Source: an uncultured Aequorivita sp.
Lineage (GTDB): Bacteria; Bacteroidota; Bacteroidia; Flavobacteriales; Flavobacteriaceae
Length of the DNA stretch: 64,000 nucleotides
Direction: 5' to 3'
NCBI GenBank assembly: GCA_937125455.1
Contig: CAKZLK010000061.1
Span: forward strand, 51,836-115,835
Both the position numbers and the translations under genes were made by a program. Positions 33,250-38,401 of the stretch are shown in pieces. Within the stretch, counting starts at the first letter, position 1. Each line of letters opens with the position of its first letter. A model generated the notes under the pieces. That model was given only the letters and a program-made list of their open reading frames with translations, was not told the DNA's origin and did no database searches.

Positions 33250-33510
33250 TTAATTCTTTGGAAAATCAAAATCAAATAAATCTCTGGGATGAACATCTAG
33301 CCCTTTAGCAAGCTCGAGAATAGTAGGTAATTGTATTTTTATAAGTCCTTTTTCAATTTTACTTATATCACTATAGTCCACATTACACCTTTGTGCTAGT
33401 TTTCTATAACTTAGATTTTTAGATTTCCTAAGTTTAGAAATTCTCTCACCAAAAGCTTTTAAAAATAATTCAGCTTCTTCCACTGCCATAAAACTTATGT
33501 TTGACGACAA
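33250..33510 (-). CDS. XRE-family HTH regulator
   Basis: An 86-residue Cro/CI-type DNA-binding protein: SKLRKSKNLSYRKLAQRCNVDYSDISKIEKG is a complete HTH_3 motif, and LDVHPRDLFDF is the usual end of this family. It is divergent from the sigma/dCas12f operon. The 398-bp spacer between them contains a promoter box and a strongly structured RNA candidate, so it may regulate that locus. Confidence 0.88.
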   Translation of the reverse strand: MSSNISFMAVEEAELFLKAFGERISKLRKSKNLSYRKLAQRCNVDYSDISKIEKGLIKIQLPTILELAKGLDVHPRDLFDFDFPKN

Positions 33511-33589
33511 TTTGAAAATTTCATTTCAAAATAATGTGGGCTTATTAGCCCACTATTAAAATATTATTCATATATTTGGTTCAGAATTA

Positions 33590-33597
33590 TATATTTG
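33590..33597 (+). promoter_or_regulatory. Bacteroidota -7 promoter box upstream of the sigma/dCas12f locus
   Basis: TATATTTG matches the Bacteroidota TAnnTTTG -7 consensus. The nearest upstream TTG (33576-33578) is closer than the usual -33 spacing, so the promoter call is moderate. Transcription would start a few bases past 33600 and run through the structured leader into the sigma gene. Confidence 0.5.
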
Positions 33598-33666
33598 CGA
33601 TACTTCTTAAAGTAAAATAGTAGAAGCATTCGCTTTGAATCTCGGACAGAAAACTGGTACTTTTTA

Positions 33667-33771
33667 TACGACGAGAGGATAAGTGTAAATGCTCACGACC
33701 CGGGGCGTGGGCTTACTTATTGTCGTAGGGTATACCAGTACCTCTGTTCGGTAAGTTGAGTCTCCACGCCC
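33667..33771 (+). ncRNA. Structured leader or small RNA upstream of the sigma gene
   Basis: GGGCGTGG (33703-33710) pairs with CCACGCCC (33764-33771), with CTTAC/GTAAG (33712-33716 / 33751-33755) stacked inside. TACGAC (33667-33672) can pair with GTCGTA (33722-33727) and AGAGG with CCTCT (33741-33745), making a pseudoknot. CTTTTTG after the stem looks like a terminator. It could be an independent RNA, an attenuator or a control region that includes the guide-like target at 33705. Confidence 0.5.
33705..33723 (+). promoter_or_regulatory. Guide-like sequence upstream of the sigma gene (candidate autoregulatory target)
   Basis: This stretch matches the putative guide at 35871 in 14 of its first 17 positions (mismatches at 7, 10 and 11) and is preceded by G, the minimal target-adjacent base reported for dCas12f-sigma systems. 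It faces the sigma/dCas12f genes, about 185 bp upstream of their first codon. The match may instead reflect shared ancestry or chance. Confidence 0.35.
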
Positions 33772-33907
33772 TTTTTGTTTGTTAAAAACAGGCTGGATTC
33801 ACAGCTCTTTTCAAGGCCATCTTCTCTTAAACATTCGAAAGAGCTCGCTTTAGTTATAAACAATAATCAAGTTAATGTTGTTGCAACTATTCATTAAATG
33901 AGGTCTT

Positions 33908-34684
33908 ATGTCAGATGATACATTTATACAATTAAAGAAAGGCTGTCCCGCCGCCTTTGCGCACATACACGCAAAGTACAGCAGGAACATCTTCTGGGTG
34001 GGCAAGCGGCTTATTGAGAATGAGTTCGTTATAGAAACCTTGGTACAGGATGCTTTCTTAAAACTGTGGCTCCATAGGGACACGTTGGAATCACCCAAGC
34101 ACGTCTTCTTTTTTTTAAGGTTCGTGATGAAAAGGGAATGCATATCCTACTACACCCGCCCCAGAAACAAGTTTTCCAGAAACATCCATTCGCTCGAACG
34201 GTTCGAAAATTACCAGGATTATATGGCGGGCTATGACCCTGTTGCTGAGGCAGAAGATCTAAAAGCCCAAAATATGAACCAAGAGGAATTGGAACAAATC
34301 GAAAAAGTATTGCCTCTACTCGATACCGAAAGTCACCGTTTTATAGAACTCTGCTTAAAATATGGCTTTCAGTACAAGGCCATTGCAGAGGCGATGGGGA
34401 CGAGCATTAAAGAAACAAGCAACAAGATTAAAAAAGCCATTGGGGAAATCAGAAACATAATCCATCAATGTGAGAGCTTTGAAAAACCTACGGTCAAATT
34501 GAAAGTTGAGGGGGTCATCACCGATCAACAGGCAGAGGTGCTGAAACTTCGTTGTGAGGAGAAATATTCGTTTGCCGATATTGCCACGGCGCTCAACCTT
34601 TCACAAAAGGAAGTTCACAGTGAGTTTATGGTAGCCTATAAGCTATCCCGTGACGGATACCAACAGCAACCCCAATCTGCATAA
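33908..34684 (+). CDS. ECF-type sigma factor linked to nuclease-dead Cas12f
   Basis: A 258-residue sigma-70-like protein. Region 2 spans about residues 9-85 (CPAAFAHIHAKYSRNIFWVG, ETLVQDAFLKLW, VFFFLRFVMKRECISYY), and region 4 about 125-180 (VLPLLDTESHRFIELCLKYG, YKAIAEAMGTSIKETSNKI). The extra C-terminal 70 residues look like a second region-4/HTH copy (LKLRCEEKYSFADIATALNLSQKEV), so it is longer than ordinary ECF sigmas. It ends 1 bp before the dead-Cas12f ATG. Such pairs were reported to form an RNA-guided holoenzyme that starts transcription without promoter motifs. No anti-sigma gene lies next to it. Confidence 0.85.
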   Translation: MSDDTFIQLKKGCPAAFAHIHAKYSRNIFWVGKRLIENEFVIETLVQDAFLKLWLHRDTLESPKHVFFFLRFVMKRECISYYTRPRNKFSRNIHSLERFENYQDYMAGYDPVAEAEDLKAQNMNQEELEQIEKVLPLLDTESHRFIELCLKYGFQYKAIAEAMGTSIKETSNKIKKAIGEIRNIIHQCESFEKPTVKLKVEGVITDQQAEVLKLRCEEKYSFADIATALNLSQKEVHSEFMVAYKLSRDGYQQQPQSA

Positions 34685-34685
34685 T

Positions 34686-35783
34686 ATGGAAAAGGCCACA
34701 ATGAAACTGACACGAAAGATTCAGCTCTTGGTAGACCTCCCTTCCCAAGAAGAAAGGAAGGAGGCACTGGACACGCTATACCAATGGCAGAACAGGTGTT
34801 TTAGGGCGGCCAACCTCATCGTTACCCATCTGTATGTGCAGGAAATGATAAAGGAATTTCTTTACCTATCGGCAGGTGTACAATATAAACTGGCCGATGA
34901 AAAAAAAGATGAGGATGGAATCCTCCAACGTTCCCGAATTAATACTACCTATCGGGTGGTATCAGATCGTTTTAAGGGCGAGATCCCCACGAATATATTG
35001 TCCACCCTCAACAAGACCTTGATTACTTCCTTTAATAAAAACAGGCCTGAGTACTGGCGGGGCGAATGCTCCCTTAAGAACTTCAAAAGGGATATGGCGT
35101 TTCCGTTCAGCATGGAATTGGTAAGCGGACTACATTATGACGATGAGAAAAATGCCTTCTGCTTTAGTCTGTTCCAGATCCCCTTCCGCACCTATCTGGG
35201 GAAAGACTTTACGGACAAGAAAAAACTATTGGAACGTGTCGTAGCGGGAGAGACAAAGCTCTGTACCTCACATATCAAATTAAAGGATGGCAAGATTTTC
35301 TGGCTTCCGGTTTTCGAAATTGAAAAGGATGAACATCATCTTAGACCCGAAGTAATCGCCGAGGCTTCCCTTTCGTTGGAATATCCGATAATAGTAAAGA
35401 CAGGCAACAACAAGCTCACCATTGGCAGCAAGGAAGAATTTATGTACAGAAGGTTGGCGATACAGGCAGCCAGAAAACGGGCACAGGCTGGGGCGACCCA
35501 TTCCAGATCGGGTAAAGGAACCAATAGAAAATTAAAGGCCGTGCGCTCTTTCCATCAAAAGGAAAACAAATATATACGGCACCGTATCCATGTCTACAGC
35601 AAAAGACTCATAGACTTTTGTATCAAACATCAGGTGGGCACGTTGATATTGGTCAACCAGGAGGATAAGATCGGGATAGCCAAGGCAGAGAAATTTGTTC
35701 TACGGAACTGGAGCTATTATGATCTGATGGTCAAAATAAAATATAAGGCCGAAAAGGCAGGCATCGAGCTTTTGGTCGAATGA
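34686..35783 (+). CDS. Nuclease-dead Cas12f/TnpB-like RNA-guided protein (dCas12f)
   Basis: A 365-residue protein; ATG 34686, one base after the sigma stop, is chosen over the GTG at 34650. The C-terminal half has the TnpB/Cas12f RuvC layout: a RuvC-I strand (ASLSLEYPIIVK, about 227-238), the basic bridge helix (YRRLAIQAARKRAQ), RuvC-II (GTLILVNQEDK, about 318-328) and NWSYYDLMVKIKYKAEKAGI, which aligns with the TnpB W..F...L.YKAE.yG helix. The RuvC-I Asp position is Ser, the RuvC-II Glu position reads Asn, and the protein stops before RuvC-III and the zinc ribbon. DNA cleavage is therefore not expected. No transposase or CRISPR adaptation genes are nearby. Confidence 0.85.
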   Translation: MEKATMKLTRKIQLLVDLPSQEERKEALDTLYQWQNRCFRAANLIVTHLYVQEMIKEFLYLSAGVQYKLADEKKDEDGILQRSRINTTYRVVSDRFKGEIPTNILSTLNKTLITSFNKNRPEYWRGECSLKNFKRDMAFPFSMELVSGLHYDDEKNAFCFSLFQIPFRTYLGKDFTDKKKLLERVVAGETKLCTSHIKLKDGKIFWLPVFEIEKDEHHLRPEVIAEASLSLEYPIIVKTGNNKLTIGSKEEFMYRRLAIQAARKRAQAGATHSRSGKGTNRKLKAVRSFHQKENKYIRHRIHVYSKRLIDFCIKHQVGTLILVNQEDKIGIAKAEKFVLRNWSYYDLMVKIKYKAEKAGIELLVE

Positions 35784-35790
35784 TAAACTG

Positions 35791-35890
35791 ATTGCGAAAC
35801 GAGGGTGCTTGTACACCCGTAAGGTGAGGTCACTTTAGAACACTCACTAAATGTAAAGAGCATATACAACGCGTGGACTCTCTTATTTTA
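35791..35890 (+). ncRNA. Cas12f-like guide RNA (scaffold plus putative guide)
   Basis: Starting just after the dCas12f stop. Hairpin 1: GGGTG (35803-35807), loop CTTGTA, CACCC (35814-35818). Hairpin 2: GTGAG (35824-35828) with CTCAC (35843-35847) around TTTAGAAC. The loop bases TTGTA (35809-35813) can pair with TACAA (35865-35869) in CATATACAAC, a pseudoknot like that of the Un1Cas12f1 sgRNA (GGCTGCTTGCATCAGCC loop with the ATGCAAC repeat end). The 20 bases after ACAAC, GCGTGGACTCTCTTATTTTA (35871-35890), are the expected guide. Only one repeat is present, with no CRISPR array. Confidence 0.75.
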
Positions 35891-36080
35891 AATGAGGGCA
35901 AAATTTTTATCGAATTAAAAAAACTGTCGGGAATTATCGATCAATTTCCGAGTGGGCAAAATTGGCATCTTACTAAAAAATCCGTGAAAAATTTGCCTGT
36001 TAATAGGCTGTCCGAAGGTTTTTCACGAAAATTTACTAAAAAATAAATTTGCAATATTTTATAAAACCCTTTAAATAAAG

Positions 36081-36789: not shown

Positions 36790-37782
36790 TTACCAATTTA
36801 ATTGGTGTATCCTTTCTTGCAAAATAGTAAGTCGTCTCAAAATATCATCCCAAGAAAGAGATTCACCCGCAAACATACTCTCTTGCATTAAATTATAGTC
36901 GGCAGCATACTTTTGGATAACTGAAGGAGGTGGTATCACTTGAATTGAACTTGGCTTATGCTTGGTATAATCTATTCCTTTTAAGGGCGAAAAAGCACTG
37001 CGATGTTCAGCTATATGGTAAAATAGATCTGCATCTTTAAAAGCTTTTTTTGCGTGGTCAGTGTCCATTAATCTTTCTAGATCATAGAGATGCCGACTTA
37101 AGCGTTCTACTCTAATACTATCTTTTTGCCATTCCTCGTGTAGCAGGAATATTTTTTCTAAAAAAGTTCGTTGCGGTTCCACAGTTCTTACAGCAAATGC
37201 TGGATTTGTAAAAGGCTCTTCATTAAATTCTCTGTCCACAACGGAATTTACAGGAACATCCTCGAAAGGCTCACGAAGAGATCTACAACTTACTTCCAAT
37301 AGTATTCTTGGTTTTAAATAATCGCTATGTTTTGTCAAGGGATCATACGTAATAAAAATCCTTAGAGGATCAGTATCAGAATCTTCAAATGGTTCCACAC
37401 CCATAGAGTTAATCGGGAGTTTTCTTTTTTTTACTGCTTCTGTTAAATCCGCAAGCAGTTCTGTGCTGATGAATTTGGCACTTTTCTTCCGAAGTTTCTG
37501 TATTTGTGTTCGGGACAATTTACCTTCCATATTAAAAAATGAACGGTCAATTGCCAAGTCTATATCTTCAGAAAAGCGATTTATTAAGTTATAACCTTTG
37601 CTTAAAGAAGTACCGCCCTTAAATACGAATGCTTCCGCATAGGGTAAAGAAAATACAATCCGAAGCATTTCTGTTACCCACCAATCCTTTTCTATTGCAT
37701 ATGCTGGGAGTCCTGCTCTTACACCAGTTTGGGTGAATATTCTCAATTTCTGTTCGTCGGCAAGGTCTATAAAATCACTCAT
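36790..37782 (-). CDS. abiEii: AbiEii-type nucleotidyltransferase toxin
   Basis: A 330-residue protein from ATG 37782 (MSDFIDLADEQKLRI); the longer track start is unlikely because it runs back into the antitoxin gene. The AbiEii/AbiGii nucleotidyltransferase core is clear: YAIEKDWWVTEMLR, FKGGTSLSKGY (GS motif) and RFSEDIDLAID (DxD). Members act as GTP- or CTP-using transferases that block growth, in some cases by modifying tRNA. The ATG overlaps the end of the antitoxin gene by 8 bp. Together they form a type IV toxin-antitoxin and abortive-infection system. Confidence 0.92.
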   Translation of the reverse strand: MSDFIDLADEQKLRIFTQTGVRAGLPAYAIEKDWWVTEMLRIVFSLPYAEAFVFKGGTSLSKGYNLINRFSEDIDLAIDRSFFNMEGKLSRTQIQKLRKKSAKFISTELLADLTEAVKKRKLPINSMGVEPFEDSDTDPLRIFITYDPLTKHSDYLKPRILLEVSCRSLREPFEDVPVNSVVDREFNEEPFTNPAFAVRTVEPQRTFLEKIFLLHEEWQKDSIRVERLSRHLYDLERLMDTDHAKKAFKDADLFYHIAEHRSAFSPLKGIDYTKHKPSSIQVIPPPSVIQKYAADYNLMQESMFAGESLSWDDILRRLTILQERIHQLNW

Positions 37783-38401
37783 AATAATACATAAGTAGGT
37801 CCCCAAAAATATCTGCAATCCATGATGGAGCAAGTTTCATATCGTGATATATATTTTCAGTTTCTTCTTTTTTTAATTGTTCTTTAATCTTTAAAATATC
37901 GTTTTGAGACACTTTTTCTTTTCCAATTTCTTTTAGTGCCTGAATAGCAAGTCCACTTAACCGACCCTTGGCGGCTAAATTTTTTGGGCTGGTTTTTTTA
38001 AACTTTATTCTGCGTTTACCAATGATTAGGGTTCGTGGTGACCCATCAGTTAGAAAAACGGCATTTAATGGAATTTGTGTTGAAAGTCCGAGCAGGTTTA
38101 ACGCCTGTATTCCGGTAGGAATAATACGAGCGTTGTCGCGTAGCGCTATTTCTTCCGCGATAGTTTCTATGTCCGGATATATTACGCCTAATAATTCGTC
38201 TCTCTCGGGATATAGATATATCCCTCGCGCTAATCGTGCTAAAAAACCATCATTTGTCAGTCGCAATAATGATTTTTTTGTATTCTCTACGCCATATTTT
38301 CTTTCAAATTCAGATGGCAAAACTATTTTACCTTTTTTCCCGACTTGAATTTCATCTTTTATTTTGTCCTTTACAGATTTCACAACTTTAATTTGTCCCA
38401 A
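37775..38401 (-). CDS. abiEi: AbiEi-like antitoxin / DUF6088 regulator
   Basis: A 208-residue protein with an N-terminal winged HTH (about residues 20-70; LLRLTNDGFLARLARGIYLYP) and a C-terminal domain containing ALRDNARIIPTGIQALNLLGLSTQIP, the DUF6088/AbiEi pattern. It represses its own operon in characterised systems and neutralises AbiEii. It is directly upstream of the toxin, overlapping by 8 bp. Confidence 0.88.
   Translation of the reverse strand: MGQIKVVKSVKDKIKDEIQVGKKGKIVLPSEFERKYGVENTKKSLLRLTNDGFLARLARGIYLYPERDELLGVIYPDIETIAEEIALRDNARIIPTGIQALNLLGLSTQIPLNAVFLTDGSPRTLIIGKRRIKFKKTSPKNLAAKGRLSGLAIQALKEIGKEKVSQNDILKIKEQLKKEETENIYHDMKLAPSWIADIFGDLLMYYYE

Follow-up and report, generated by a model that had tools for sequence, protein, structure and literature searches.

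Systems that pair a nuclease-dead Cas12f (dCas12f) with a sigma factor, such as the one encoded by an uncultured Aequorivita species, probably (at a probability of about 0.7) activate operons that carry one conserved leader RNA. The targets would mainly be susCD operons in trans, with the system's own operon as the cis member of this set. The locus described here lies in a stretch of 64,000 nucleotides (the window), to which all coordinates refer.

The Sigma-dCas12f Operon and Its Guide RNA

The open reading frame for an ECF sigma factor (33908-34684, plus strand) adjoins that for a nuclease-dead Cas12f of 365 residues (34686-35783, plus strand). In phmmer searches, the former matched 9n9q_C, an RpoE protein (E 3.1e-90), and the latter matched 9n9c, named "Nuclease-deactivated Cas12f" (E 1.5e-188), with an alignment to 9n9c_A that spans 364 residues, the full length. 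PDB entries 9n9c, 9n9m, 9n9o, and 9n9q represent the dCas12f-sigmaE system, which is of F. taeanensis origin. Directly downstream of dCas12f, a guide RNA scaffold ending in ...TATACAAC (35784-35870, plus strand) is followed by the natural guide GCGTGGACTCTCTTATT (35871-35887, plus strand), the boundaries of which were drawn from a comparison of 40 loci; both scaffold and guide are conserved among homologs. Just beyond the guide RNA lie two adjacent minus-strand genes (36790-38401) that, by eye, resemble AbiEii/AbiEi-type toxin-antitoxin genes.

A Probable Guide Target Upstream of the Sigma Gene

The original prediction placed a guide-like sequence, preceded by G, upstream of the sigma gene. 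Indeed, GCGTGGGCTTACTTATT at 33705-33721 (plus strand) agrees with the guide GCGTGGACTCTCTTATT at 14 of 17 positions, differing at three, and the base before it (33704) is G. In dCas12f-sigma systems the target-adjacent motif (TAM) is reportedly a 5' G, and 33704 occupies its position. Besides the guide itself, this is the sole match with at most three mismatches in the 64-kb window, in which dinucleotide shuffles lead one to expect 0.11. Across the 3.7-Mb genome, other sites with at most three mismatches of 16 occurred at approximately the frequency seen with the reversed pattern, that is, near chance. Eight of these nine sites fall within genes and the ninth has no preceding G, leaving no second intergenic match behind G among them. 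Judged by sequence, 33705-33721 is the only plausible guide partner found in the genome, and it looks like a genuine guide target.

A comparison of 40 GCGTGG-type guides with 47 copies of the surrounding element, in which guide positions 1-6 were fixed by selection and positions 7-16 were free, revealed agreement from guide base 1 to near base 17. The element base preceding the match is G in 44 of the 47 copies, and neither the scaffold nor the sequence beyond the guide resembles the element in this comparison. Because agreement runs from base 1 to approximately base 17 behind a G and is absent from the scaffold and downstream sequence, the extent of the match reads as a guide-and-target footprint rather than a longer duplication. 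The suggestion of an ancestral duplication was thus abandoned, as similarity is confined to the guide and missing from scaffold and flanks. The alternative suggestion, that the site marks a control site, gained support, since conservation of the guide-like site, and with it the element, is widespread in front of sigma-dCas12f operons. A second sequence proposed as a possible control site, TTAAATGAGG, does occur exactly twice in the window (33894-33903 and 35888-35897); because a 10-mer shared between both stretches arises in approximately 2% of shuffles and just one of three close relatives retains TTAAATGAGG upstream of sigma, its sharing was treated as chance.

A Conserved Leader RNA With Alternative Pairings

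The guide-like site belongs to a conserved, covarying leader RNA element of approximately 175 nt (~33614-33791, plus strand; full match to covariance model R1), lies where conservation of the element is highest, and forms its switch strand. The predicted hairpin around the site is real by two measures: 33640-33800 outscores its shuffled versions in folding (z -3.2), and its helices covary. In an alignment of 93 copies, the nested helices show 240 double changes compared with 79 in shuffles, far exceeding the support for structures slid by one to three columns. The 5' arm of helix P2 (ACTGGTA, 33653-33659, plus strand) pairs with TACCAGT (33733-33739), with a compensatory change from U-A to C-G in 10 of the 93 copies. 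The 5' arm of the inner helix P5 (GCTCACG, 33691-33697, plus strand) pairs with CGTGGGC (33706-33712), and therefore masks the first bases of the guide-like site.

The opposite hairpin arm noted in the original prediction, a repeat of the first guide bases on the minus strand, is present as well: 33769-33763 of that strand reads GCGTGGA. In the RNA, this arm is the tail CCACGCC (33764-33770, plus strand), which is followed by TTTTT (33772-33776) and offers an alternative partner to GGCGTGG (33704-33710); tail and U-run together are terminator- or pseudoknot-like. In this alternative helix, 97.5% of cells are paired, with 13 double changes compared with 3.1 in shuffles. The two pairings open to GGCGTGG, with GCTCACG or with CCACGCC, are thus mutually exclusive and both backed by covariation. 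A candidate 3' helix around the tail, AGTTGAG/CTCAACT, was found in 25% of copies compared with 5% under the null in a crude test.

The element matches no known family: a search of 4227 Rfam models over 33480-33960 gave no match at E <=1, and a search of the element and guide RNA regions gave no credible one. Elsewhere in the window, 19153-19187 matches the DUF805b cis-regulatory RNA above the Rfam gathering score.

The -7 consensus of Bacteroidota is TAnnTTTG. A promoter-like motif of this kind, TATATTTG (33590-33597, plus strand), is conserved just upstream of element copies in the alignment, which suggests that transcription probably begins close to the first base of the leader, here near 33605. 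Divergent from the leader, a small XRE-type helix-turn-helix (HTH) gene occupies 33250-33510 on the minus strand (Pfam HTH_3, 5e-11). Between this gene and the promoter-like motif lies the inverted repeat GTGGGCT-TATT-AGCCCAC (33536-33553; 7-bp arms), likely the operator of the HTH protein.

Distribution of the Leader Element

Of 99 relatives, 31 proved to carry the element in a DNA search with 33610-33800, with one to six copies per genome and mostly without dCas12f nearby. By covariance model, 70 of the 400 Flavobacteriaceae genomes sampled have it, and it co-occurs strongly with dCas12f: 19 of 22 dCas12f-matching genomes carry it compared with 51 of the 378 others (p 4e-13). All 14 further dCas12f genomes searched also carry the element, several of them without a linked copy.

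Downstream of an element copy there is typically susC, an ECF sigma gene, or a sigma-dCas12f operon. Among 148 distinct copies, a set biased towards dCas12f because such loci were sought, 71 precede susC, 50 precede the sigma gene of a dCas12f system, and seven precede a FecI-type sigma gene; 19 are unclassified, many through too little flank. In the typical layout, a small HTH-like gene diverges from the element, which is followed by susC, susD, and then a peptidase or propeller gene. The HTH-like gene thus holds a position equivalent to that of 33250-33510 here; three such proteins from trans loci gave no Pfam match when scanned. In dCas12f-free genomes, element copies often carry the same switch strand, and the element stands before susC operons there too.

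In the present genome, the cis element is the only copy found. No trans copy was detected in its assembly of 63 contigs, and a role at susCD is therefore not visible here. Altogether, a cis copy alone was found in five genomes (G000, G135, G164, G382, and G031), this one included, all of them multi-contig drafts.

Guide Classes and Their Apparent susC Targets in Trans

Approximately half of 80 homologous dCas12f loci carry GCGTGG guides of the type GCGTGGGCTCTCTTATT, which match the switch strand of the element and are held across many genera. In most genomes with both kinds of copy, those before susC in trans match the guide at least as well as the cis copy, G324 being the exception. For example, the trans copy matches at 13 of 14 positions in G256 (cis, 11 of 14) and at 14 of 14 in G372 (cis, 12 of 14). 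In G466, two dCas12f systems (L142 and L149) match the same susC leaders (L277 and L315) at 14 of 14 bases, at two positions.

Other guide classes address other parts of the leader. The F. taeanensis-type guide, TTGTGGGATATACGC, does not match its own leader; guides of this type match element-bearing susC leaders in trans, approximately 350-380 bases in and downstream of the element, again behind a G. The Echinicola-type guides AAAAATCCGATCTAAT and AAGAATCCAATTTAAC (L161 and L164) match downstream parts of susC leaders in other genomes (L303 and L308) at 15-16 of 16 positions; these matches are preceded by C, and so lack the 5' G of the TAM. The classes CCTTCCCTTAAAG, CAAATTTTTCGGG, and others showed no leader match at the level tested. 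A CCTTCCCTTAAAG or GCCTTTCCCC guide is found at L190, L191, L193, L201, L205, and other loci, several of which have more than one guide RNA; a search for targets of the CCTTCCCTTAAAG class returned none.

Proposed Mechanism and Rival Explanations

We propose that an ordinary housekeeping promoter probably drives the leader and that the GGCGUGGGC strand would fold either against GCUCACG or against the CCACGCC tail beside the U-run; given two alternative folds, one of them beside a U-run, the leader may attenuate transcription. The dCas12f guide equals the family consensus of the switch strand, and the complex would bind leader DNA behind the 5' G. Bound dCas12f would then recruit its sigma factor and RNA polymerase, with transcription starting at a fixed distance downstream. 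In the F. taeanensis dCas12f-sigma system, the guide binds behind a 5' G and transcription reportedly begins at a set distance downstream of the bound site. Here, transcription starting in this way would begin inside the 3' half of the element or shortly beyond it, and the resulting mRNA would lack the 5' half of the leader. Without the strands needed for either fold, attenuation would therefore be bypassed. Several observations weigh against this account: the missing trans copy in the 63-contig assembly, the guide classes without a leader match, the Echinicola-type matches without a preceding G, and the three mismatches at the cis site, which may weaken binding.

The original prediction was positive autoregulation, to be checked by asking whether guide and upstream site covary across homologs. 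They do not: at 20 GCGTG-type loci, the guide agrees with its own copy at 13.80 of 17 positions and with the copies of other loci at 13.76 (permutation p=0.50), and covariation was accordingly discarded as proof of autoregulation. Moreover, 12 of 32 loci with an upstream element keep it unchanged despite an unrelated first guide (at one of them, L157, the second guide resembles the element), and conservation of the element extends to genomes that lack dCas12f. That the guide evolved specifically to bind in front of its own sigma gene, forming a dedicated feedback loop, is thus possible, if somewhat doubtful; in its favor are the near-constant distance between cis element and sigma gene at many loci, the five genomes with a single cis copy, and the lack of another plausible guide target in the present one. 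Autoregulation does not appear to be the conserved role, as the guide is not tied to its local copy, but the finding of the cis copy alone makes it possible in this genome. With five draft genomes, this one among them, showing the cis copy alone, cis control, which would amount to feedback, is a live possibility for this species.

The sign of such control could also be reversed. Leader-bound dCas12f might block polymerase arriving from the housekeeping promoter upstream of its own operon, a negative feedback consistent with the position of the site, which lies within the predicted leader and approximately 100 bp past the promoter-like motif, and with the repressor function of related RNA-guided dead nucleases such as TldR (PMC13418256). 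The pairing of dCas12f with a sigma factor, together with solved relatives that include an RpoE complex, makes this unlikely. We consider it highly improbable that the guide RNA acts on RNA, mimicking the switch strand and pairing with GCUCACG or CCACGCC to refold the leader in trans. The guide is indeed a strand with two alternative partners in the leader; however, a preceding G and spacer-like boundaries delimit the match, a G likewise precedes the different leader segment that the F. taeanensis-type guide matches, and the protein is closely related to a dCas12f with solved RpoE complexes. The occurrence of the element independently of dCas12f would fit a guide that was copied from it and now does nothing at the upstream site, but similarity that stops exactly at guide length and a guide held across many genera leave such an evolutionary leftover with very little probability.

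Activation of leader-bearing operons, mainly in trans, thus remains our preferred reading. A broader version of it, to which we give even odds, holds that a leader family absent from Rfam marks susCD operons and that dCas12f-sigma systems repeatedly gained guides to its segments: the switch strand of the element, a 3' strand downstream, and perhaps a 5' strand downstream as well. Transcription would initiate beyond the attenuator, and the system's own operon would stand under the same leader.

Relation to Known Systems

The Aequorivita system resembles the dCas12f-sigmaE (RpoE) system in its proteins, both full-length relatives in the same gene order, in the guide RNA directly downstream, and in having susC leaders as apparent targets. 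The two differ in where the guide points: TTGTGGGATATACGC hits a downstream segment of susC leaders and not its own upstream leader, whereas the Aequorivita guide corresponds to the switch strand of the element, which is present in cis too. TldR, a TnpB-like nuclease-dead repressor, is likewise directed to a regulatory site by a natural guide (PMC13418256). Both are nuclease-dead proteins of the TnpB/Cas12f kind; unlike TldR, which represses flagellin genes, the Aequorivita system is paired with a sigma factor and is presumably an activator. With attenuating leaders and riboswitches, the element shares a structured 5' position, two alternative pairings, and a U-run, but it has no Rfam family or known ligand, and a guide RNA apparently targets its DNA.

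Implications

The element is a conserved leader RNA outside Rfam, the alternative folding of which may control many susCD operons, even where dCas12f is absent. Most natural dCas12f guides would gain a concrete target family, namely a structured leader before outer-membrane receptor operons, and what dCas12f-sigma systems regulate, and why, becomes testable. If guides to this leader have indeed been acquired repeatedly, one conserved RNA control element would double as a DNA address for RNA-guided transcription.
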